Assembly: GCF_036178845.1 (NCBI RefSeq)
Contig: NZ_CP108070.1
Span: 310,001 to 374,000, forward strand
DNA from: Streptomyces sp. NBC_00271
Lineage (GTDB): Bacteria; Actinomycetota; Actinomycetes; Streptomycetales; Streptomycetaceae
Direction: 5' to 3'
Length of the DNA stretch: 64,000 nucleotides
Within the stretch, counting starts at the first letter, position 1. Every line of letters begins with the position of its first letter. Below, piece by piece: positions 7,813-45,603 of this stretch. The notes beneath the pieces were generated by a model. That model did not search any database and was not told the DNA's origin. It saw only the letters and a list, made by a program, of their open reading frames with translations. The translations under genes and the position numbers were made by a program.

Positions 7813-10048
7813 CGGGAACGGGTGCGGCCACCGGTGACACCGCGAGCGGACGCACGACGTACGCCCTGCGGGGGGGGGACCAGTTTCCGGCACGGGGGGC
7901 GGGTTCAGGGGGCGGGGTGAGGACGGAGCGCACCCCGCGGGCGAGGGCGGACGCGCTGGCGGCGGCGTCGCCGATGCCGGTCATGACCACGGCCGAAACC
8001 ATGCCGGGAGCATGCGGCGTGCGCTGGGCGAGTTCGTAGGCCGCCCTCCCCCCGGGCCCGCACCCGCACAGCACCAGGCGCCGGCCCGGCCCGGATGCCT
8101 GGTGCAGCACGCCCGGTGCGCCGTCACCGTGCACGGCCACGATTTCCTCCGGGCCGCGGTGGCCGCGGACGAACAGGTCGTAGCTGCCCGCCGGCACACC
8201 CGGGGCGGTGACCAGGCAGATCACGTCCGCGTGCGGATGCCCGGGCCGCAGCACGGTCAGGGCGGGGTGCGGCGCGGGCGGCACGGGCCGGGCCATGCGC
8301 GGTGCCGCGGCCCGGGCCAGCAGGTCCAGCAGCTGTCCGGCACTGGCCTGGGCCTGCCGGAACTCGGGCAGCGCGCGCAGCAGGCGTACGCACTGGGAGT
8401 GCAGGGCGGCGGCGTCCTCGTCCGCCAGCTGCGCCCGGTCGTAGAACAGGCCCAGGACCAGGCCGCCCGCGCTGTCGTGCCGGGCGGCGAGGGTCAGGGG
8501 CCCGCCGGCGGCGCCGGCCGCGTTGCGGGGGGTGTCCGCGTGGACGCCCTGGGCGGCGAGTTCGCCGCGCAGGACCTTCGGCAGCACGAGCGGGCCGTCG
8601 AAACGCACCAGAGTGCCGCCGGCACCGCAGAGCGGACCCACACCCGCAGCAGGACCCGCAACAGGACCGGCAACAGGACCGGGACCGGCAGCGGGGGCGG
8701 GGGCGGCGGGCGGGCGGGGGGCCCACGCACGGATCGTCTCGGTGCTGGCCCACGGGTAGGCGGCCAGGTCCAGCAGCGTGTCGCGGACCTGGTGCAGCAG
8801 GTCCGCCAGCGGGGCGGCCGGATCGACGGTCACGGTCATCGGCAGCGGGCTGTCCAGCAGGCCGGGAATGCCCGCCGCCCCCGGCAGGGCGATGTCCCGG
8901 CCCGACAGCTGCACCCCGAAACTCACCGGCAGCGGCCCGGCAACGCCCGCCGCCCGGTACAGCAGCAGCGCCCACACCAGGTGCAGCGCGCTGGACTCGG
9001 CGGCGCCGCGCAGCGCGGCCCAGGAACGCAGCCGGAGGGTCTCCGGCGCCCGCAGCCGGGTGTGCAGCACACCGGGCCCGCTCTGCCCGGTGGCGCCGCC
9101 CGGCCGCCCCGGGCGGGTGGCGGCCCGCGGCGGCGGCACCGCGCGGGCCCAGAACTGCCGCGCGGCCGTGGTGTCCTGGCCGGCCAGCCAGCGGGCATGG
9201 TCGCGCAGATCGGGACGGCGTTCCCCGCCCGGCAGGACGCCGCCGGCGGCGTAGGCGCGGTAGAACTCCCGCAGCAGCAGGTGCACACCCCGCTCGTCGA
9301 GGAGGGCCGGGTGATAGGTCAGCAGCACCCGCGGCGGCGCCGCGCCCGCACCCCCGCCGGGCTCCGCCGCCAGCAGCGTCAGGCGCAGCAGTCCCGGCCG
9401 GTGCAGCGCGAACCCCCGCGCCCGGTCCCGCCGCAGCAGCTGGGGCCAGGTGACGGCGGCCGGGGAACACACCGCGATGTCCGCCTCGGCCCGGGCGTGC
9501 AGCACCAGACGCGGCGCGGCGACCCAGTCGAAACAGGCCCGCAGCACACACTCCCGGTCGACGACGGACTGCCACGCCGCGGCGAACCGCGCCACATCGA
9601 AAGGCCCGGACCAGTCCCAGTACAACTGCTCGACCCCGCCCCCGTCACCGCCGTCACTGCTGCCGCCGGTGCCAGTGCTGGTGCTGGTGGCGGTGGCGGC
9701 GGGGGTGAGGGCGGCGCGCAGCAGGGTCTGCTGGTGTCCGGTGACCGGGAGGATCTCCCCGCCCGGCGGGGGCGGTGCCAGCAGGTCGGCCAGCAGGTCC
9801 GCGGGCAGCGCGGCAAGCCCGCCCGCGGCGGGCGGGGTCAGGCGCAGCGTGTGGTGACCGGGCCGGTGACTGTCCAGCGCGACACCGAAGGCACGGTGGC
9901 GCTGCGCGAGCCGGGCGGCGACCGTCTCGGCGTCCGCCGGACCCAGCGGGCCGCGCAGTTCCAGGACCAGCGGACCGCCCGGCGACAGCGCCACCGGCTC
10001 ATGGACCACGGCAAGAACAGCGCCCCGCGGCACACCCTGGCTGCTCAT
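7622..10048 (-). CDS. NRPS-condensation-like protein with degenerate thioesterase-like tail
   Basis: An 808-residue protein. Residues about 95-560 resemble an NRPS condensation domain: GVEQLYWDWSGPFDVARFAAAW, an HxxxDG-region reading YHPALLDERG, SFGVQLSGRDIALPG and a VRFDGPLVLPK-like stretch. The usual HHxxxDG is HPxxxDE here, so the second, catalytic His is Pro. Residues about 610-740 resemble an alpha/beta-hydrolase thioesterase, but the nucleophile elbow reads GCGPGGRAAYELA with Gly for Ser. ATG at 10048 follows GGGGAGG. Low-complexity inserts occur at about 135 and 470. The last ~60 residues read into the IS-end-like repeat, so the true C-terminus may be lost. It ends a leftward block behind the PPTase; the role is unknown. 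Confidence 0.6.
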   Translation of the reverse strand: MSSQGVPRGAVLAVVHEPVALSPGGPLVLELRGPLGPADAETVAARLAQRHRAFGVALDSHRPGHHTLRLTPPAAGGLAALPADLLADLLAPPPPGGEILPVTGHQQTLLRAALTPAATATSTSTGTGGSSDGGDGGGVEQLYWDWSGPFDVARFAAAWQSVVDRECVLRACFDWVAAPRLVLHARAEADIAVCSPAAVTWPQLLRRDRARGFALHRPGLLRLTLLAAEPGGGAGAAPPRVLLTYHPALLDERGVHLLLREFYRAYAAGGVLPGGERRPDLRDHARWLAGQDTTAARQFWARAVPPPRAATRPGRPGGATGQSGPGVLHTRLRAPETLRLRSWAALRGAAESSALHLVWALLLYRAAGVAGPLPVSFGVQLSGRDIALPGAAGIPGLLDSPLPMTVTVDPAAPLADLLHQVRDTLLDLAAYPWASTETIRAWAPRPPAAPAPAAGPGPVAGPVAGPAAGVGPLCGAGGTLVRFDGPLVLPKVLRGELAAQGVHADTPRNAAGAAGGPLTLAARHDSAGGLVLGLFYDRAQLADEDAAALHSQCVRLLRALPEFRQAQASAGQLLDLLARAAAPRMARPVPPAPHPALTVLRPGHPHADVICLVTAPGVPAGSYDLFVRGHRGPEEIVAVHGDGAPGVLHQASGPGRRLVLCGCGPGGRAAYELAQRTPHAPGMVSAVVMTGIGDAAASASALARGVRSVLTPPPEPAPRAGNWSPPRRAYVVRPLAVSPVAAPVPGPAPTTKIRDLGPSTNSGVESADGHVLPRDPHAPQRGRLSTAGPERVRRFPRPTWIAPGIRNR

Positions 10049-20782: not shown

Positions 20783-22135
20783 CGTGTCCGCGTCGAGGGT
20801 GGTGGCCGCTCGGTGGTCTCGCAGGCCGGGGCGGTGCTCCTGGTCGAGACGGCCCGCAAGTCCGGCCTGGACACCGCGATATCGGCGGCAATGGCGCCCT
20901 GGCGCAAGCCACGGGCAGGGCACGACCCGGGCAAGGTCCTGCTGGATATCGCGCTCGCAACAGCTCTGGGCGGGGACTGCCCCGCCGATGTCGCCATGCT
21001 GCGGGCCGAGCCCGACGTGTTCGGCCCGGTGGCATCCGACCCCACGGTCTTCCCGGCTCATCGACGCCCTCGCCGCAGCCGGCCCGAAGGCCCTCACCGC
21101 GATCCGCACGGCGCGAGCCGAAGTACGTACGCGGGTCTGGGGGCTGGCCGGGGCTAACGGCCCAGCCGCCGACGGCCACGTGATCGTGGACATCGATGGG
21201 GTGCTGGTCCTTGCGCACTCCGGGAAGTAGGACGCCACCCCGACCTGGAGAAGACCTTCGGCCATCATCCGCTCGTCGCGTTCGTCGACCACGGCCAGGC
21301 CGGTTCCAGGGAGCCGGTGGCCGCGCTGCTGCGGCCCGGCAACGCAGGCTCCAACACCGCGAGCGATCACATCACCACCACCCAGCTCGCCCTGGCCCAG
21401 CTGCCCAGACACCTGCGGCGGGGACACCGGACACTGATCCGCACCGACTCCGCCGGCGGCACCCACTCCTTTCTCGACTGGCTCTCCAGACCGGGCCGGT
21501 GGCTGTCGTATTCCGTCGGAATGACTATCACCGACGCCATCCATCAGGCCGTGCTGAAGATCCCGAAGAAGGCATGGACACCGGCCTACGACGCCGGCGG
21601 CACCGAGCGGCCCGGCGCCTGGGTCGCCGAGATCACCGACATGCCCGACCTCTCCTCCTGGCCGAAGGGCATGCGGCTGATCGTCCGCAAGGAACGCCCG
21701 TACCCCGGCGCCCAGTTGCGCTTCACCGACCTCGACGGACTGCGGCTGACCTGCTTCGCAACCAACACCAAAGGCGGTCAGCTCGCCGACCTCGAACTGC
21801 GTCACCGCCGCCGGGCCCGCTGCGAGGACCGCATCCGAAACGCCCGCGACACCGGCCTGCGCAACCTGCCCCTGCACGACACCGCACAGAACCGGATCTG
21901 GCTGGAGATCGTCTCGCTCGCACTCGACCTCCTCGCCTGGATGCCGATGCTCGCCCTGACCGACAAGACCCGCCGCTGGGAACCCAAAAAGCTCCGCCTG
22001 CGGCTGTTCTCCGCCGCCGCCCAACTCGTCACCACCGGCCGCACCCGCCGACTCCGCTTCACCACCCCATGGCCCTGGACCGACAAGATCACCCGGGCAA
22101 TCGACCGGCTCCAGGCCCTGTCGAACCCCGGCTGA
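20783..22135 (+). pseudogene. decayed IS1380-family transposase
   Basis: A full-length but broken transposase. SVVSQAGAVLLVETARKSGL and HDPGKVLLDIALATALGGDC begin it; VIVDIDGVLVLAHSGK carries the first catalytic Asp and is followed by an in-frame TAG at about 21228-21230 (Gln expected). After frame changes near 21055 and 21240 the rest is intact: LVAFVDHGQAGSREPVAALLRPGNAGSNTASDH, RTDSAGGTHSFLDWLS, and on to the stop at 22135. At least two shifts plus the nonsense codon make it inactive. Confidence 0.8.
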
Positions 22136-25111: not shown

Positions 25112-26197
25112 ATGACCACCCAGCCCCTGCTGCAGCCCGTCCGCCTCGGCGCCCTGGAGCTCCCCAACAGCGTCGTCATGGCCCCCATGACCCGCGCCCG
25201 CGCTCAGAACGCCGAGCTGGCCCCCACCGACCTGCATGCGACCTACTACGCGCAGCGCGCTGGCGCCGGCCTGATCGTTACCGAGGGAACCTGGGTCAGC
25301 CCCGACGCGATCGGCTTCATCAACGTCCCCGGCATCTACACCGACATGCAGACCGCCGGCTGGGTGAAGGTCACCGAAGCCGTCCACGAGGCGGGCGGGC
25401 GGATCCTCTCCCAGTTCGGCCACGTCGGCACGGCCTCCCACCCCGACCACCTCGGCGGCCGCCTGCCCGCCGGACCCTCGGCCATCAACCCCGGCGAGAA
25501 GTCCTTCACCCCCTCCGGCCCGAAGGACACCGTCACCCCGCGCGCCTACACCGCCGCCGAGATCGCCGCCACCATCGCCGACTACCGCCATGCGGCCGAG
25601 AACGCCCGCCGCGCCGGCTTCGACGGCGTGGAAATCCACGCCCAGCAATCCCACTTGATCCCGCAGTTCCTCAACCCACGTCTCAACCAGCGCACCGACG
25701 CCTACGGAGGCAGCAGCGAGAAGCGGGCCCAGTTCCTCCTCGACATCCTCGACGCCGTCAGTGACGTGTGGGACAGCGACCGCATCAGCGTGAAGATGTC
25801 CCCGGGCTGGACCAGCGGAACCACGTTCACCGCGGACGAGGAGACACTCGCTGACTACGACCAGCTGCTCAAGAAGCTCAACGACAGCAACCTGGCCTAC
25901 CTGCACCTCCTGGGCACCCCCGGCACCATCGAGGAGCGCATCGCCCTCTTCTCCCGCTACCGCGCCCACTACCTGGGCAACATCGTCGCCAACCTCGGCT
26001 TCACCCAGGCCCTCGGCAACGAGATCCTCGACCACGGGATCGTCAACGCGGTCTCCTTCGGCGCCCCCTTCATCGCCAACCCCGACCTGGTCGAGCGCTT
26101 CGCGCAGGGCCACCCGCTGGCCGACGGCGACCGGGACACCTACTACGCCGGTCACACCGAGGGCTACACCGACTACCCCGCCTTCACCGCCAACTGA
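25112..26197 (+). CDS. Old Yellow Enzyme-family alkene reductase
   Basis: A 361-residue FMN-dependent ene-reductase (NemA/OYE class). TIM-barrel motifs: VVMAPMTRARA near the N-terminus, FGHVGTASHPDH (substrate-binding region; classical OYEs have HxGR), GFDGVEIHAQQSHLIPQFLNPRLNQRTDAYGG, and IANPDLVERFAQGHPLADGDR near the C-terminus. It would reduce activated C=C bonds in enones or nitro compounds. ATG at 25112 follows AAGGAAG; an in-frame TTG 6 bases earlier is less likely. Third gene of the operon. A second, divergent OYE lies at 41037-42149. Confidence 0.92.
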   Translation: MTTQPLLQPVRLGALELPNSVVMAPMTRARAQNAELAPTDLHATYYAQRAGAGLIVTEGTWVSPDAIGFINVPGIYTDMQTAGWVKVTEAVHEAGGRILSQFGHVGTASHPDHLGGRLPAGPSAINPGEKSFTPSGPKDTVTPRAYTAAEIAATIADYRHAAENARRAGFDGVEIHAQQSHLIPQFLNPRLNQRTDAYGGSSEKRAQFLLDILDAVSDVWDSDRISVKMSPGWTSGTTFTADEETLADYDQLLKKLNDSNLAYLHLLGTPGTIEERIALFSRYRAHYLGNIVANLGFTQALGNEILDHGIVNAVSFGAPFIANPDLVERFAQGHPLADGDRDTYYAGHTEGYTDYPAFTAN

Positions 26198-37824: not shown

Positions 37825-38827
37825 TCACCGGCTGGTCCGGGTGAGGTCTTTAATCCAGATCATCGAGGCACGCAGGTGGAGGCCAGCGAGGTAGCTGCCG
37901 GGGTCTTGTCGTACCGAGTGGCGATGCCCCGCCATGCCTTGAGCTTGTTGATCAGGCGCTCGACGGTATACCTCTCCTTGTAGACATCGGCGTCGTGGCC
38001 CACGGGCCGACCACCCTTGCTTCCCTTCCTCTTCCGGTTCGTGGCCTGGTCCTTCTTCTCTGGGATGACCGCTTTGATGCCGCGCCTGCGCAGGTGGGCG
38101 CGGTTGCCGCGGGACGAATACGCTTTGTCACCGGCGACCGCGTCCGGCCGGGTGCGGGGGCGTCCGACAGGCCCGCGGACCCGTATCTTCTTCAGGACGG
38201 GGATGAACTGCGGGCTATCCGCGTCCTGACCTGCGGTCAGGACGAATGCCAGCGGGCGGCACTTGCGGTCGGCGGCGAGATGGACCTTGCTGGTCTGTCC
38301 ACCCCGCGAGCGTCCCAGGAGAGCGGCCTTCAGTCGGACTTTTCGCCGTCGCCGGACGCATCGTCGCTCTCCCTGCACGGGATCGGTCCCGACGTTCTGC
38401 CCGTTTCGTCCTTCGAGGCTGCCCCTTTAGACCTAGGCTTCTCCTCCTCGGCGGCAGCCTTCTCGAGGGCGGCGAGGACGTCTTCGTCCAGGTGCATCCC
38501 GGCAGCGTCGTGGTGAGCGCGCGCGGTGGTGGAGTCGACACTGACCAGGGAGACGTCCACCTCGCCCTCCTTCGCGGCCTCCACGATCATTCCCTCCAGC
38601 AGGGCCTCGAAGACACCGGCATCGCGCCACTGTCGGAAGCGGTTGGACACGGTCGCCCAAGCGCCGAACTCGGCCGGCATCTCCCGCCACTGCGCGCCGG
38701 ACCAGAACCGCCAGATCACACCCTCGAACTGCTGCCGCAGCCGCTCGGGATACGGGCCATGCCTGCCGATCGGCAGATACGGGCCGATGAACTCCCACTC
38801 CACATCCATGAGTTGCGCGCGCGTCAT
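37825..38827 (-). pseudogene. IS5-family (IS427-type) transposase, two frames plus a terminal frameshift
   Basis: Frame A (38330-38827) begins MTRAQLMDVEWEFIGPYLPI and carries SVDSTTARAHHDAAG (first Asp). Frame B (37860-38378) continues with GRSRGGQTSKVHLAADRKCRPLAF, AGDKAYSSRGNRAHLRRRGI (second Asp) and ERYTVERLINKLKAWRGIATRYDK (Glu). A and B overlap by 49 bases with a GAAAAG slip site near 38335, the normal programmed frameshift of this group. Near 37885 an extra shift diverts the C-terminus (YLAGLHLRASMIWIKDL is in another frame, ending at 37825), so the copy is probably defective. Confidence 0.75.
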
Positions 38828-39830: not shown

Positions 39831-40718
39831 CTAGGCGCCCCGCTGCCCCCGGCCCGGCTTCTTCGCTGCCGGCTTCTTCTTCGCCGTCTTCTTGGCGGGC
39901 GCCTTCCCCGCTGTCTTCCTGTTCGTGGCCGTCTTCTTCGGCATCTCGTGGACCTCGGCACGGCCGGCGTCCTCGGCGCGTGCGGCCTGGGCGTTGCGGA
40001 CGCTCTCCTGAAGGGCGGCCATCAGGTCGACGACCTTGCCGCCCGGCTCCTCGTCCTCGGTGCTCGGCTTGGGCGGCTGGTGGCCCTCGGCCTTCGCCTC
40101 GAGCACCGGTTCCAGGGCCTGGCCGTACTCGTCCTGGTAGCCGGAGATGTCGTCCGTCGTCACCGAGTCGATCAGTTGCAGCGCCTCGTCGATCTCGGAG
40201 TCCGTGACCTTGGCTTCCTTCGGCGCGAGCTCGGAGGAGTCGCGCACCTCGTCGTCCCACTTGAGTACGTGCGCGATCAGTGCCCCGTCCCGCACCCGCA
40301 GCAGCACCAGGCGCTCACGCCCGTGCCACGCCAGCTTCGCGACGGCCACCTTCGTGTTGCGGGCCAGCGCCCGGGCGATCAGGACGTACGGCTTCGCTGC
40401 GACTTGGCCGTCGTACTGCACGAGGTAGCTGTCGCCGCTGAGCCGCACCGGGTCGATCGAAGCGGCCGGCACGAACGCGACGATCTCGATCGCCTTCGCG
40501 GTCGGCGGCGGCATCTGTTCCAGCTCTTCGTCCGTGACGGCGACCAGCGTGTCCTTGGAGACCTCGTACCCCTTGCCGATCTCGGCCGCGGACACCTCGC
40601 GGTCCTCCGCCTCGCAGTACTTGCGCACCCGCACCCGGCCCAGGTCCTCGGTATGGACCTGGTGGAAACGGACCGAACGGTCCTCGGTGGCGCTCATCAG
40701 CTTCACCGGAATGGTCAC
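39831..40718 (-). pseudogene. ku: Ku end-joining protein, 3' segment of a split gene
   Basis: This is 295 residues of bacterial Ku, the homodimeric ring that holds broken DNA ends for ligase LigD. Visible are VKLMSATEDRSVRFHQVH, KGYEVSKDTLVAVTDEEL, FVPAASIDPVRL, YLVQYDGQVAAKPYVLIARAL, the GRERLVLLRVRDGALIAHVLKW strand, and a Lys/Ala/Pro tail (KKTAKKKPAAKKPGRGQRGA) seen in actinobacterial Kus. The frame opens at GTG 40718, but the first beta-strand (MPRPLWSGAISFGL) is missing here and lies 3.85 kb away at 44572-44613. There is no good ribosome site at 40718. It is probably inactive or greatly weakened; a short-start product is possible. Confidence 0.9.
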
Positions 40719-41036
40719 ACGGATATCGGCGAAGGACTCCCTTACGGAAGGCCGACCTGGTGGATGGGCCGCCGCCGGAAAGCTGTCATAGGCGTCAGCT
40801 GTGGCCGAAGGCCGCCGCGGTGGCCACGCACGAGAGCGATGGGCTCGACGAGGTCACCGAACGCAGGCTGCTGACCAGGAACCTGCGGACCCTCAACGCC
40901 CTGACGGACCCGACGGTCCTCGAGCCGGTGATCGCCGGTGTGACCGCGGGCTCAAAGGGTCGGGCACAGTGTCGCCGGTCGGGCGCCTGTCCATGTGTGA
41001 GTGGGACTGCCGCATGGACAGGCGTGACCGTGGGCC

Positions 41037-42149
41037 TCAAGCCGCTTCGAGGAAGGGGTAGTCGGTGTAGCCCTCGGCGCCCGGCCCGTAGAACAGTTCC
41101 GGCCGCGGCTCGTTCTCCGGGTGGCCACCCTGCCAGCGCTCGACCAGGTCGGGGTTGGCGATGAGGGCCCGGCCCACGACCACGGCATCGGCGTGGTCGG
41201 CCTCGATCTGCTGGAGCGCCTGCTCGCGGGTGGTCTGCCCACCGAAGGGGCCGCTGTTGACGATCAGCTTGCCGTCGAAGCGCCGCCGCAGCTCCTGTAC
41301 AAGGTCACCGCCCGGCTCGGCGTGCAGTACGGAGAGGTAGGCCAGGCCCAGCGGGCGCAGTTGGTCCATCAGGGTGCCGTAGGTGGCCAGGACGTCGTCC
41401 CGGTCGGTCTCGAAGACGTCCCCGAGGTCGACCTCCGGCGAGATCCGCAGCCCGACCCGCTCGGCACCGACGGCCTGGGCGACCGCCGTGACGACCTCGA
41501 CGACGAAGCGGGCGCGGTTCTGCGGCGAGCCGCCGTATCCATCGGTGCGCTGGTTGGCCGCCGGGGAGAGGAACTCCTGGAGCAGGTAGCCGTTGGCGCC
41601 GTGGATTTCCACGCCGTCCGCTCCCGCCTCGACGGCCCGGCGGGCCGCGGCGACGAAGTCCTCCAGGGCTGCCCGGATCTCTGCGGTGGTCATCGCTTCC
41701 GGTACGGGGTAGGGCTGCTCGCCCTTCTCGGTGAACGTCTTATTGTCGATGGCGATCGCGCTGGGGGCGAGGATGCGGCGGCCGCCGTTGATGTCGGGGT
41801 GGGTGCCGCGGCCGGCGTGCATGATCTGCAGGACGATGCGGCCGCCCTCGGCGTGCACCGCCTCGAACACCCGCTGCCAGCCGGCCGCCTGCTCGTCGGT
41901 GGCGATGCCCGGCTCACCGACATACCCCTGCGACGCGTGGTCGGGGTAGGTGCCCTCGGTGATGATCATTCCGACGCTCGCCCGCTGCCGGTAGTACTCG
42001 ACCATCAGGTCCCCGGGAATGCCGGAGGAACCGGCCCGGACCCGGGTCAGCGGCGCCATGACGATGCGGTTGGCGAGCTCGATCTTCCCGAGGGAGACGG
42101 GGGAGAAAAGCGACGAAACGGACGAAACTTCTGAAATGTTGACAGTCAT
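41037..42149 (-). CDS. Old Yellow Enzyme-family alkene reductase (second copy)
   Basis: A 370-residue FMN-dependent ene-reductase: VSLGKIELANRIVMAPLTRVRA, the catalytic-region IMHAGRGTHPDINGG (HxGR present, unlike the copy at 25112), GADGVEIHGANGYLLQEFLSPAANQRTDGYGG, VGLRISPEVDLGDV, SVLHAEPGGDL and ANPDLVERWQGGHP. It is complete. ATG at 42149 has only a weak AGAAAG upstream. It lies inside the insertion in ku and shares strand with the aldehyde dehydrogenase 505 bases upstream; that spacer (42150-42654) has no clear gene. Confidence 0.93.
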   Translation of the reverse strand: MTVNISEVSSVSSLFSPVSLGKIELANRIVMAPLTRVRAGSSGIPGDLMVEYYRQRASVGMIITEGTYPDHASQGYVGEPGIATDEQAAGWQRVFEAVHAEGGRIVLQIMHAGRGTHPDINGGRRILAPSAIAIDNKTFTEKGEQPYPVPEAMTTAEIRAALEDFVAAARRAVEAGADGVEIHGANGYLLQEFLSPAANQRTDGYGGSPQNRARFVVEVVTAVAQAVGAERVGLRISPEVDLGDVFETDRDDVLATYGTLMDQLRPLGLAYLSVLHAEPGGDLVQELRRRFDGKLIVNSGPFGGQTTREQALQQIEADHADAVVVGRALIANPDLVERWQGGHPENEPRPELFYGPGAEGYTDYPFLEAA

Positions 42150-42654
42150 GGGTTTCTTTCTTTCTGCAATACGGAGGAAAACGGGATGAAGGTCTGCGAC
42201 GCAGGGGGTCCACGCTGTCCCGGCGGAGGCACGGATGCGGTCCTCGGGCAGGCGCGGGCCCGCTGACGGTGACGCGGTTCCATGACCGCGATCGGGGTGT
42301 GGGTGGTGCGGGCGGCGAACGCGGTGAGAGCCGCATGCCGTCGGCGTCGACGCCGGTCAAGCGGAACTGCCCGCCGGAGTAAGGGCGTTCGCTCCTTGCG
42401 CACGATCCGCAGTCAGCCAGGTGACGAAGTCATGGGTGCCGCCGCCGGGGTCGGTACAGATCGGTGTCTGCAGGCCGCGCCGCGACCGACTCCCTCGACG
42501 CGCCCCCGCGAAGAGGACCGATACACGGCTTCACCTGGTACACGCTTGCGGCGGTGGCGGGAACAGTGATCTCAGCGTTCCTCGTTCGCACCGGCCTGAG
42601 GCACTTCCGGCGGCCGATCGGCCATCGGACAGCCTGCTTCGGGAGAGCGCGGGG

Positions 42655-44001
42655 CTAGTTGAGCGGCACGTCCGCGACGGCCTTGAGGTGGCTGAACGTC
42701 TCGAGGGAGTACCGGCCGTGGTAGCGGCCCATGCCGCTTTCGCCGACGCCACCGAAAGGCAGTCCCGGCATGAGCAGTTGCATCACCGGCTGGCCCCAGG
42801 CGACGCCGCCGGAGGACGTCTCCTTCACGAGGCGCGACTTGGTGGCCTCGGACGTGGTGAAGGCGTAGAGCGCGAGGGGCTTTTCGCGTTCGTTGATGAA
42901 GGCGATGGCGGCATCGAGGTCGGCGACTTCGACGACGGCGAGGATCGGACCGAAGATCTCCTCCTGCATGACCGGCGATGCGGGGTCGACATCGGTGAGC
43001 ACGGTCGGTGCGATGAACAGGTCGTCGCGGTCGTGCTGGCCTCCCACCGCCGCCCGGCCGGAGTCCAGCAGACGGGTGAGCCGGTCGAAGTGCCGCTCGT
43101 TGATGATCCGGCCGAAGTCGGCTGCGGTCTGCGGGGTGGTGCCGAACTGGGCGTCGACCGCCGCGCGCAGGGCGGGGACCAGCGCGGCGGCGGTGGCAGG
43201 ATCGGCCAGAACGTAGTCGGGGGCTATGCACTGCTGCCCCGCGTTGCCGAACTTGGCGCCGACCAGCCGCTTCGCGGTCTCGTCCACGTCGGCGTCGGGG
43301 GCCACGAAGACCGGTGACTTGCCTCCGAGTTCGAGCGTGACGGGGGTGAGGTTCTTGGCGGCTGCGGCCATGACGAGCCGGCCGACCGTGCCATTGCCGG
43401 TGTAGAAGATCTGGTCGAAACGCTCCGCCAGGAGGGCCGTGGTCTCCTCGGCGCCCCCCTCGACCACGGTGAGCACGTCGGCGTCGAAGTACTCACGCAG
43501 CAGGCGTGAAGCGACCGCCGAGGTGTGCACCGACATCTCGCTCGGCTTGGCCACCACGGTGTTCCCGGCGGCCAGCGCGCCGATGATGGGGTCGATGAGA
43601 AGGTGCAGCGGGAAATTCCACGGAGCGATCACCAGGACGACCCCGAGCGGGTCGTACGTGGTGTAGGCCGTTGTCGTGGGACCGAAGTGGGCAGGAACCT
43701 CCACCGGCCGAGGCTGAAGCCAGTTTTCGAGATTCGCCAGCGCCTCGTCGATGTCGGCGACGGTGAAGTCGATCTCCTGCACCTTCGCCTCGGCGGCGTT
43801 CTTCCTCAGGTCCGCCCAGAGCGCTTCGATCAGTTCCTGCTCGTTCTCGACCAGCAGGGCCCGCAGCCGCTGCAGCTGGCTGACGCGCCAGTCCAGTCCG
43901 CGGGTGACGCCGGTGTTGAACGTCGCACGAAGGCGGCCGACCACATCCGCGGCCGTTTCGCTCTGGTGCGTCCTCGGCTCGGTCGCCTGTGTTGTGGTCA
44001 T
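42655..44001 (-). CDS. aldehyde dehydrogenase (class 3-like)
   Basis: A 448-residue NAD(P)-dependent aldehyde dehydrogenase without the N-terminal extension of longer ALDHs. LGVVLVIAPWNFPLHLLIDPIIGALAAGNTVVAKPSE is the cofactor region; VTLELGGKSPVFV has the general-base Glu; FGNAGQQCIAPDYVLA the catalytic Cys; EEIFGPILAVVE closes the fold. ATG at 44001 is used. It is divergent from the ArsR-type gene across 169 bases with an imperfect palindrome at about 44127-44146. Likely role: oxidation of toxic aldehydes, regulated by the adjacent repressor. Confidence 0.92.
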   Translation of the reverse strand: MTTTQATEPRTHQSETAADVVGRLRATFNTGVTRGLDWRVSQLQRLRALLVENEQELIEALWADLRKNAAEAKVQEIDFTVADIDEALANLENWLQPRPVEVPAHFGPTTTAYTTYDPLGVVLVIAPWNFPLHLLIDPIIGALAAGNTVVAKPSEMSVHTSAVASRLLREYFDADVLTVVEGGAEETTALLAERFDQIFYTGNGTVGRLVMAAAAKNLTPVTLELGGKSPVFVAPDADVDETAKRLVGAKFGNAGQQCIAPDYVLADPATAAALVPALRAAVDAQFGTTPQTAADFGRIINERHFDRLTRLLDSGRAAVGGQHDRDDLFIAPTVLTDVDPASPVMQEEIFGPILAVVEVADLDAAIAFINEREKPLALYAFTTSEATKSRLVKETSSGGVAWGQPVMQLLMPGLPFGGVGESGMGRYHGRYSLETFSHLKAVADVPLN

Positions 44002-44126
44002 GAGGTGTGCTCCGTTCTTGATGCAGGCCGCGCCGTCAAAGGCGTTCGTGGCATGCCGTAGTACCGGTGATGGGCAACCCGGTGGATGACGGATGAAGGG
44101 TCAATCCGTGCCTTCACTGTAGCCCA

Positions 44127-44146
44127 TGTACGCACTAACGCGAACA
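44127..44146. promoter_or_regulatory. imperfect palindrome between ALDH and ArsR-type genes
   Basis: TGTACGCACTAACGCGAACA matches its own reverse complement at 14 of 20 positions, with TGT and ACA outer ends. It sits just ahead of the regulator's start and within the shared spacer, so it is a candidate operator. Confidence 0.4.
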
Positions 44147-44170
44147 TAGGGCAGGGGCTATTCTTTTCTC

Positions 44171-44524
44171 ATGGCCAGTCGCACCTCATCCCCCCTCGTC
44201 CACCCCGACACGGACGACCTCGACCTCTTCAAGATCATGAGCGCGCTGACCGACGAGACCCGGCTCACCATCGTCGTCACCCTCTCCGTCTCCCCTGGCC
44301 TGGCCTGCAGCGGCTTCACGCAGGACGTCACCGCGTCCGTACTCACCCGCCACTTCCGCGTCCTGCGCGAGGCCGGTCTCATCCGGCAGCACGACGTCGG
44401 CACCCGCCGTTTCAACACTCTGCGCAAGGAAGATCTGGACCAGCGCTTCCCCGGACTGCTCGACCTCGTCCTCAAGGAGAGCGTCGGCCGCGTGGAGCCC
44501 TACGTGAACACCGAGTGCGCCTGA
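44171..44524 (+). CDS. ArsR/SmtB-type winged-helix repressor
   Basis: A 117-residue regulator. FKIMSALTDETRLTIVVTLSV and SGFTQDVTASVLTRHFRVLREAGLIRQHDVGTRRFNTLRKEDLDQRFPGLLD match the single-domain ArsR winged helix (helix-turn-helix about 45-75). No CxC metal motif is seen, so it is probably not a metal sensor. ATG at 44171 is preceded by a moderately AT-rich leader. It is divergent from the aldehyde dehydrogenase and is the rightmost gene of the ku insertion. Confidence 0.82.
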   Translation: MASRTSSPLVHPDTDDLDLFKIMSALTDETRLTIVVTLSVSPGLACSGFTQDVTASVLTRHFRVLREAGLIRQHDVGTRRFNTLRKEDLDQRFPGLLDLVLKESVGRVEPYVNTECA

Positions 44525-44571
44525 CGCTCTGGCAGAGCCGACGGACCGGCGAGCTAGTTCAGAGAAGTCAC

Positions 44572-44613
44572 CAGGCCAAAGGAAATGGCGCCGCTCCACA
44601 GCGGTCGGGGCAT
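44572..44613 (-). pseudogene. ku: 5' segment of the split ku gene
   Basis: ATG at 44613 encodes MPRPLWSGAISFGL, the conserved first strand of bacterial Ku, followed by GTGAC (the duplicated GTCAC) and then foreign sequence with a stop a few codons on. It is the missing start of the gene at 39831-40718. It faces away from the ligase gene at 44725, reproducing a divergent ku/ligD-type arrangement with a 111-base spacer. Confidence 0.88.
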
Positions 44614-44724: not shown

Positions 44725-45603
44725 GTGGACTGGCCCGCCTCCGTCGCCCTCGCACAGTCCGTACCGGAACTTCCCACCGGCACGGACTGGAGCTACGAGG
44801 TGAAACTCGACGGCCACCGAATGATCATGTGGCGGACCGGCGACGGAGTCCGGCTGCAGGCCCGCTCCGGACGCGACGTCACCGCCGCATGGGGCGACCT
44901 CGCCCTCGCCGGCTTGTACCTCCCGGCCGGGACCGTTCTCGACGGCGAGGCCGTCATCACCACCGAGGGCGGACGGATCAGCTTCGAGGCTGCCCAGGCC
45001 CGAGCCGCCTCCTCCCCCACCCGCGCCCGCCGCCTGGCCACCCAGCGCCCCGCCCACTACATCGCCTTCGACGCCCTGCAACTGCCGTCGCCGACCGGGG
45101 ACATACGAGCACGCCCGTACAGCGAGCGCCGCACAGCCCTCCTCAACCTCCTGGCAGGACTGCCCGCGAACACCCCGATCCAGGCCGTCTCCGCCACCAC
45201 CGACCGCGACACCGCACTCACCTGGTACACCACCCTCCACCACCAGGGCATCGAAGGCATCGTCGCCAAACGCACCACCGCCCCCTACCGAGCCGGCCGC
45301 ACCGGGACATCTTGGTTGAAGATCCGCCACGCGGACACGATCGACGCGACCGTCGCCGGGTTCACCGGCACCGCACGCCAGCCGCGAGCCCTCGCTGTAC
45401 GGCTCCCCGGCGGACGCGTCGCGCTGTCCCAGCGCCTGACCACGGTGCTCGCGGCCTCCGTCGCCCCGTGTCTGGTCCCCCAGCCCGGGCGCGCGTACAC
45501 GCAGGGCGGCGACGCCTACACACCCGCGAGCGAGGAGATCATCGTGGAGGTCGTGGCAGGCACCACCCGGCATGCGATGGTCACCGTGGTCCGCCTGCGC
45601 TGA
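44725..45603 (+). CDS. ATP-dependent DNA ligase, LigD ligase-domain type
   Basis: A 292-residue ATP-dependent ligase. Motif I is YEVKLDGHR (Lys nucleophile, about 28), motif III YIAFDAL near 112 with LDGEAVI upstream, motif IV EGIVAKR and motif V SWLKIRHADT, followed by an OB-fold (about 205-292). This corresponds to the ligase module of LigD without polymerase or nuclease domains; Streptomyces often encode these separately. GTG at 44725 is used. It is divergent from the broken ku gene, its expected partner in non-homologous end joining. Complete. Confidence 0.9.
   Translation: MDWPASVALAQSVPELPTGTDWSYEVKLDGHRMIMWRTGDGVRLQARSGRDVTAAWGDLALAGLYLPAGTVLDGEAVITTEGGRISFEAAQARAASSPTRARRLATQRPAHYIAFDALQLPSPTGDIRARPYSERRTALLNLLAGLPANTPIQAVSATTDRDTALTWYTTLHHQGIEGIVAKRTTAPYRAGRTGTSWLKIRHADTIDATVAGFTGTARQPRALAVRLPGGRVALSQRLTTVLAASVAPCLVPQPGRAYTQGGDAYTPASEEIIVEVVAGTTRHAMVTVVRLR

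Follow-up and report, generated by a model that had tools for sequence, protein, structure and literature searches.

Streptomyces sp. NBC_00271 harbors, within a stretch of 64,000 nucleotides (NZ_CP108070.1, positions 310,001 to 374,000; hereafter the window), a copy of the end-joining gene ku that is cut in two by an insert at 40719-44571, with the five bases GTCAC at each joint. Comparison with other genomes suggests, with a probability that we put at roughly 0.87, that this insert is the cargo half of a tyrosine-recombinase transposon related to Tn554, whose attachment site lies at the start of ku. Two tyrosine recombinases, termed T1 and T2, would have cut the ku core and rejoined it with the joined ends of a mobile (circular) copy of the element, and the insertion would have split ku after codon 14 and added the tail Val-Thr-Ser-Leu-Asn-stop to the 5' piece. 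The left end and the recombinase half would have been lost later, most likely via a deletion ending at the ku core, which would leave a remnant unable to move on its own.

Codons 1-14 of the interrupted gene (MPRPLWSGAISFGL) are located on the minus strand at 44613-44572, while the ku body, which begins at codon 15 (VTIPVKLMSA...) and comprises 295 residues, occupies 40718-39831 on the same strand (Pfam Ku, 6.5e-39, profile positions 5-189). The right copy of the core GTCAC is found at 44567-44571, where it forms the beginning of codons 15-16, and the left copy at 40714-40718. The original prediction had placed both ku pieces at these coordinates with GTCAC at both joints, and had stated that deletion of the insert restores an in-frame Ku of about 309 residues; each of these points was borne out, removal of 40719-44571 giving 14 + 295 = 309 residues.

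The empty ku site is documented both in the host genome and beyond it. The 5' piece runs on without interruption in three host paralogs, namely the terminal-repeat copies L009 and L010 at 64.5 kb and 11.867 Mb, whose DNA is 90-91% identical to the window ku body and to the ku start plus ligase, and a third paralog, L016, at 11.504 Mb; these read ...GGTCTGGTGACCATTCCGG or ...GGGCTGGTGACCATTCCGG across the joint, with one core. The same ku is also whole on a plasmid of Streptomyces sp. NBC_01483 (locus L048), where it is contiguous over query residues 1-257. A search for uninterrupted ku with one GTCAC and for a second intact ku had been proposed as a check, and both were found. Six of the 13 Ku matches in the host genome span the domain from position 1-2 to 188-190; several of the 13 are partial and lie close to the chromosome ends. 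The window ku body could start at the GTG of codon 15, without the first 14 residues, and because these residues are lacking, the interrupted copy is taken as probably inactive, with other complete ku genes remaining in the genome. Over the final bases ahead of the core (within 44572-44600), the window ku departs from the paralogs at several synonymous positions, even though it is nearly identical to them just upstream, which may reflect gene conversion or a mosaic ku.

Recurrence of the right joint was surveyed in a genus sample of 392 Streptomyces-group genomes, the host genome included. The right end of the element, CTAGTTCAGAGAA, is present exactly at 44554-44566 on the plus strand, and an identical end closes two of the intact relatives described below (L136 and L137). 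The 20-mer across the right joint, TGGTGACTTCTCTGAACTAG, has two exact places in the host genome, each after a ku 5' end, the second being at 415.82 kb; allowing as many as 3 mismatches disclosed no further place in this genome, against one for the reversed control. The joint GGNNTGGTGAC|TTCTCTGAAC, searched as the pattern GGNNTGGTGACTTCTCTGAAC with at most one mismatch, was detected at 41 places in 36 of the 392 genomes, and its reversed control gave no match among those listed. Upon inspection of 39 distinct places, two terminal-repeat copies being left out, 36 proved to be immediately preceded by an in-frame match to 5 or more of 12 ku residues, the ku likeness being confined in several of them to the last residues before the joint; one further joint (L059) resembles ku DNA with a frameshift, and two (L052 and L053, in genomes G032 and G124) show no ku. 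Right ends joined to ku are therefore present in 34 of the 392 genomes including the host, i.e., the 36 with the pattern minus G032 and G124. The sequence past GAAC differs in nearly all of these places, and the core GTSAC, in places selected by a pattern that allows one mismatch, is found in 38 of the 39, as well as in the recombinase-bearing loci L130, L136, L137 and L146. These comparisons indicate that ku is a recurrent landing site for such transposons in Streptomyces. When the right end alone (YTAGTTCAGAGAAG) was sought, 46 places in 40 of the 392 genomes were obtained (control, 1), of which 17, in 14 genomes, are flanked by the ku site as judged by eye. In one locus (L134:1347-2859, G299:C32), two ku 5' pieces, each on a right end, lie 1456 bp apart in a tandem-array-like manner.

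Full elements are represented by L130 (genome G243), L136 (S. humi) and L137 (S. hilarionis), in which the ku body is followed by the core, the left end GTTGACYGAACTA, T1, T2, the cargo, the right end YTAGTTCAGAGAA, GTSAC and the ku 5' end. In L130 the ku 5' piece and the ku body are 6.9 kb apart, and the tyrosine recombinases T1 (428 residues) and T2 (819 residues), whose reading frames overlap by 4 bp, stand beside the ku body and read away from it; the same pair is found in L136 and L137. The L130 cargo beyond T2 comprises a quinone-oxidoreductase-like gene, an F420-reductase-like gene and a TetR regulator. A T1 scan of the species-genome collection yielded 18 loci, 17 from Streptomyces and one from Nonomuraea. 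Of these, L136 and L137 are the complete elements in ku. L146 (S. swartbergensis), also in ku, retains every part, but with its recombinase frames broken and its right end deviating by one base. In L141, L148 and L151 the ku body abuts T1, and the other 12 have different flanks, are cut at contig ends or are partial. Of 19 T1 loci, 14 were tallied for the left end: ten carry it exactly and four with a single-base difference. Taken as an inverted repeat, the left end agrees with the right end at 11 of 13 positions. Residues R250, K274, H346, R349, H373 and Y382 of T1 and H667, R670, H693 and Y702 of T2 are invariant among 10 sequences each, one gap being allowed per column and the T2 numbering being taken from an 858-residue read, 39 more than the 819-residue reading frame; we take them to be catalytic residues of tyrosine recombinases, the first Arg and the Lys being assigned in T1 only. 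The original prediction had considered a transposon that has lost its enzyme, an idea that is supported by the right ends joined to ku in 34 of the 392 genomes and from the two tyrosine recombinases of the intact relatives.

Between L130 and L136, the module of left end, T1 and T2 is 91% identical over 3.8 kb and is followed by unrelated cargo up to the same right end, from which it appears that cargo is exchanged between elements. Members of the family also occur in other targets. L147 carries a same-family element inserted in the Cys-rich C-terminal motif (ACVRC) of another element's T2 (L147:14527), and L138 a related element with the same ends (9945 and 14456) in the motif DHCHEHGYVRG...VCQSCN, the first half of which is also seen in L139. 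The latter motif is presumably endonuclease-VII-like.

On the right side, the cores of L130, L136, L137 and L146, four of the seven ku-inserted elements, are GTCAC, as in ku, while the T1-side cores of five of these seven are GTGCC, GGCAC (three times) and GGGAC, none of which is present in 32 different uninterrupted ku starts from the retrieved loci. These unusual T1-side cores would agree with the donor footprint described for Tn554 and for strand-biased circularizing integrative elements (SEs) in the accessible part of PMC10214605. In the window, both cores read GTGAC in the ku reading direction, which is compatible with a footprint from another ku or with a native core. The GTCAC pair, initially described as a 5-bp duplication, is better read as a recombination core than as a target duplication left by an ordinary transposase.

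Actinobacterial transposons related to Tn554 were named by Van Houdt et al. in 2012 (PMC3414803), who, in the accessible sections of that paper, describe short recombinases of around 350 residues and abnormally long ones of 611-828 residues, discuss attachment sites with no target stated, and include NC_007491, NC_008270 and NC_008537 in their Table 2, the last two without TnpC. L130 T1 and T2 share 57% and 50% identity with proteins encoded on R. erythropolis PR4 pREL1 (NC_007491), and T1 is 55% identical to a protein of pRHL2 (NC_008270), 41% to one of an Arthrobacter sp. FB24 plasmid (NC_008537) and 54% to one of NC_005073, the matches being drawn from 60 of 187 and 60 of 195 records. NC_005073 is presumably pBD2, a plasmid likewise included in that table. 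Since T1 and T2 match replicons of the table, the intact relatives L130, L136 and L137 are counted, on sequence likeness, as members of the actinobacterial Tn554-related class. They share with it the adjacent short and long tyrosine recombinases reading in the same direction (428 and 819 residues in L130) and, as in the Tn554 family, a preferred integration site, here ku codons 14/15, related elements being found in other targets too. They differ from the class in that the target is ku, and the window copy differs further in lacking both recombinases and one end.

With respect to Tn554 of Staphylococcus aureus, the target ku is different and no TnpC-like gene was recognized in L130, where the single small open reading frame scanned at the T2 end (9031-9576, overlapping T2) gave no family match. 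The SEs of Gammaproteobacteria likewise possess two tyrosine recombinases, one of them large, and resemble the present elements in their imperfect inverted repeats of 13-19 bp; they may also do so in their 6-bp core with a donor footprint. However, the SE gene set intA-tfp-intB-srap includes two further genes, tfp and srap, whereas here T1 overlaps T2 directly, without an intervening gene, and the SE footprint is on the intA-distal side, whereas the unusual cores here are on the T1 side. GInts (as described in the accessible part of PMC5385486) likewise combine several tyrosine recombinases at one end with variable cargo and insertion specificity, but their ginABCD operon contains three recombinase-like genes, whereas two recombinases are seen here. 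No paper naming ku as an insertion target was found in the accessible portions of the open-access literature. The ku target, the ends and the cargo exchange accordingly appear to be new relative to the known class.

In the window, the element's right end is adjoined by a gene for an ArsR-like helix-turn-helix regulator (44171-44524, plus; weak scores, under curated cut-offs), which corresponds in position and strand to the MarR-like and TetR regulators of L136 and L130. Then follow, both on the minus strand, an aldehyde dehydrogenase of 448 residues (42655-44001; Pfam Aldedh, 5.3e-92; NCBIfam BenzalDHMdlD, 1.2e-111, under cut-off) and an OYE-family, N-ethylmaleimide-reductase-like ene-reductase of 370 residues (41037-42149; Pfam Oxidored_FMN, 5.2e-81; NCBIfam PRK10605, 5.3e-93, under cut-off). 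The cargo order and strands are those of L136 and L130, with enzymes toward the recombinase side and the regulator beside the right end. These genes had been named correctly at the outset, the ArsR assignment with the reservation just given; the statement that no transposase is visible did not stand, since at about 42225-42658 the cargo contains a stretch of degenerate IS1380-type transposase sequence (H52/H53, 3 pieces, 74.7%), most of which is absent from some related cassettes, e.g., L180, L184 and L186. The two insert ends do not match each other by eye, as had been claimed, but a recognizable right end does exist.

Among the 40 of 534 candidates scored, the host genome showed no other complete copy of the cassette, the best other match (73%) being to the aldehyde dehydrogenase part. 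Beyond the host, aldehyde dehydrogenase copies of 90-96% identity are present in 13 other genomes of 295 (14 places), the next best match being 65%. The block stands there in other settings, and one place (L175) has the same ArsR; a search for the cassette elsewhere with other flanks had been among the proposed checks.

At the left joint, the final cassette stretch (40719-41036), devoid of a left end or recombinase, meets the ku core without a leftover base. Related cassettes pass this joint by 164-419 bp of shared sequence in six of the 14 places, whereas in the remaining eight the block stops short of it, or the ene-reductase part has diverged or is absent. Because six cassettes continue past it, the left joint is best understood as a breakpoint within the cassette that falls exactly at the ku core, and these extensions rule it out as the cassette's natural end. 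Neither likeness to the element's left end (by eye) nor micro-homology is visible at the window left joint.

Two routes to such a breakpoint deserve comparison. A deletion up to the core is preferred. A one-ended capture, in which the recombinases would have used the right end and, instead of the left end, a non-standard sequence, and would have moved neighboring DNA without their own genes, so that both sides were joined exactly to the ku core and no later deletion took place, is a possible but clearly less probable route. It would account for the lack of a leftover base and for GTGAC on both sides, and it suits the 3.8-kb module that L130 and L136 share beside unrelated cargo and the same right end. 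However, the left joint bears no evident likeness to a left end, no second such joint was seen among the matches listed, and a deletion ending at the core would look identical. An extension of this idea is put forward only tentatively: the ku-targeting Tn554-like elements may be cargo shuttles, whose constant module of left end and recombinases swaps cassettes of regulator plus redox genes since the 13-bp right end suffices, and whose recombinases may sometimes carry a cassette without themselves via a non-standard second end. If so, the exact recombinase-less insert of the window would exemplify it, and settling in ku would switch off one host end-joining gene.

Capture of a linear fragment of metabolic genes by end joining at a double-strand break in ku, one of the two origins initially envisaged, is improbable as an explanation of the whole insert. 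Insertions at Streptomyces repair scars have been reported (in the accessible part of PMC5869714), and the absence of visible micro-homology would suit such a left joint, which could indeed stem from end joining. However, many genomes share one insertion codon and one 13-bp end, and intact recombinase-bearing elements occupy the same site; this process, strongly disfavored for the right joint, was rejected as its cause. An ordinary DDE transposon with a 5-bp target duplication, whose transposase was lost, is scarcely credible: the five repeated bases and the internal IS1380-like remnant might recall one, but this remnant lies in the interior and some related cassettes are without it, there is neither a transposase of its own nor matching terminal inverted repeats, a single target codon recurs, and the intact relatives with tyrosine recombinases effectively refute it. 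Hardly more plausible is an assembly artefact, which the restriction of the exact left joint to the host genome among the matches listed might suggest; it was rejected as the main cause given an 11.9-Mb contig in an assembly of 3 contigs (completeness 100, contamination 2.93) and the recurrence of the right joint in other genomes.

Several observations weigh against the proposal that the insert derives from a ku-targeting Tn554-related transposon. The left-joint search, with up to 2 mismatches, gave matches in 145 of the 392 genomes, mostly noise, and among those listed the joint is exact in the host genome alone, with no independent replicate. The closest cassette with the same ArsR (L175, 95% over window 44532-40719) is located outside ku, where no right end accompanies it. 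No trace of a left end, T1 or T2 was found in the window insert, and a search of the host genome at E up to 0.001 gave only a T2 fragment, at 10.386 Mb, without any T1; since the insert lacks a left end and both recombinases, it is regarded as a remnant rather than a working member of the Tn554-related transposons. The cargo layout varies, the gene adjoining the right end in L146 being on the other strand and L137 being almost without cargo. Moreover, 29 of the 46 right-end places are outside ku, and in 20 right-end loci, over up to about 18 kb of further sequence, no ku body was detected with a host paralog Ku query at E up to 0.001. T1/T2 stretches at E < 1e-6 were present in nine of these 20 loci, all on the expected strand, and absent from the other 11, weaker T1 matches, which fell on both strands, being set aside as chance; because of the missing ku bodies and recombinases, many of the right-end joints appear to be relics too. 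Finally, the support is entirely comparative.

For the actinobacterial Tn554-like transposons, an attachment site, both ends and a core are now at hand, which makes their mechanism testable. As a recurrent transposon site in Streptomyces, ku may help to explain the broken and accessory ku copies of this genus, and metabolic cassettes are carried in these elements as cargo. An ATP-dependent DNA ligase gene (44725-45603, plus; Pfam DNA_ligase_A_M, 5.6e-27), divergent from ku, belongs to the context outside the element; the original prediction had stressed this adjacency, which is real; with the ku sequence itself as the recurrent target, however, it is probably incidental.

A second broken ku copy exists in the host genome. 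At L011:9960-10800 (G000:C1:391.96-392.80 kb), the break in ku falls at most a few bases away from the same codon, and a remnant of a different tyrosine recombinase, with a different end (GTTATCTAGAGG), lies against the ku body; the same layout is seen in L131 (G226). Relatives of this recombinase occur in 22 of 295 genomes at E up to 1e-15 (loci L188-L212); their ends are mostly like GTTATCT and adjoin coding DNA of other genes, and among these 25 loci only the host-genome copy lies beside ku. The ku body at 391.9 kb is 91.9% like that of the window, while the ku 5' piece at 415.8 kb is 76.7% alike over 86 bp, and owing to this unequal likeness the two pieces may be two separate genes rather than one split gene.

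Elsewhere in the window, ene-reductase-like sequence (64.8% and 78.2%, two pieces) and an IS1380-type-like stretch (71.5%) are found on the opposite strand at 25136-26179 and 21676-21837. In addition, IS4/IS5-type transposase pieces (DUF4096, DDE_Tnp_1) are located at 37860-38827, beside an abhydrolase gene that adjoins ku.

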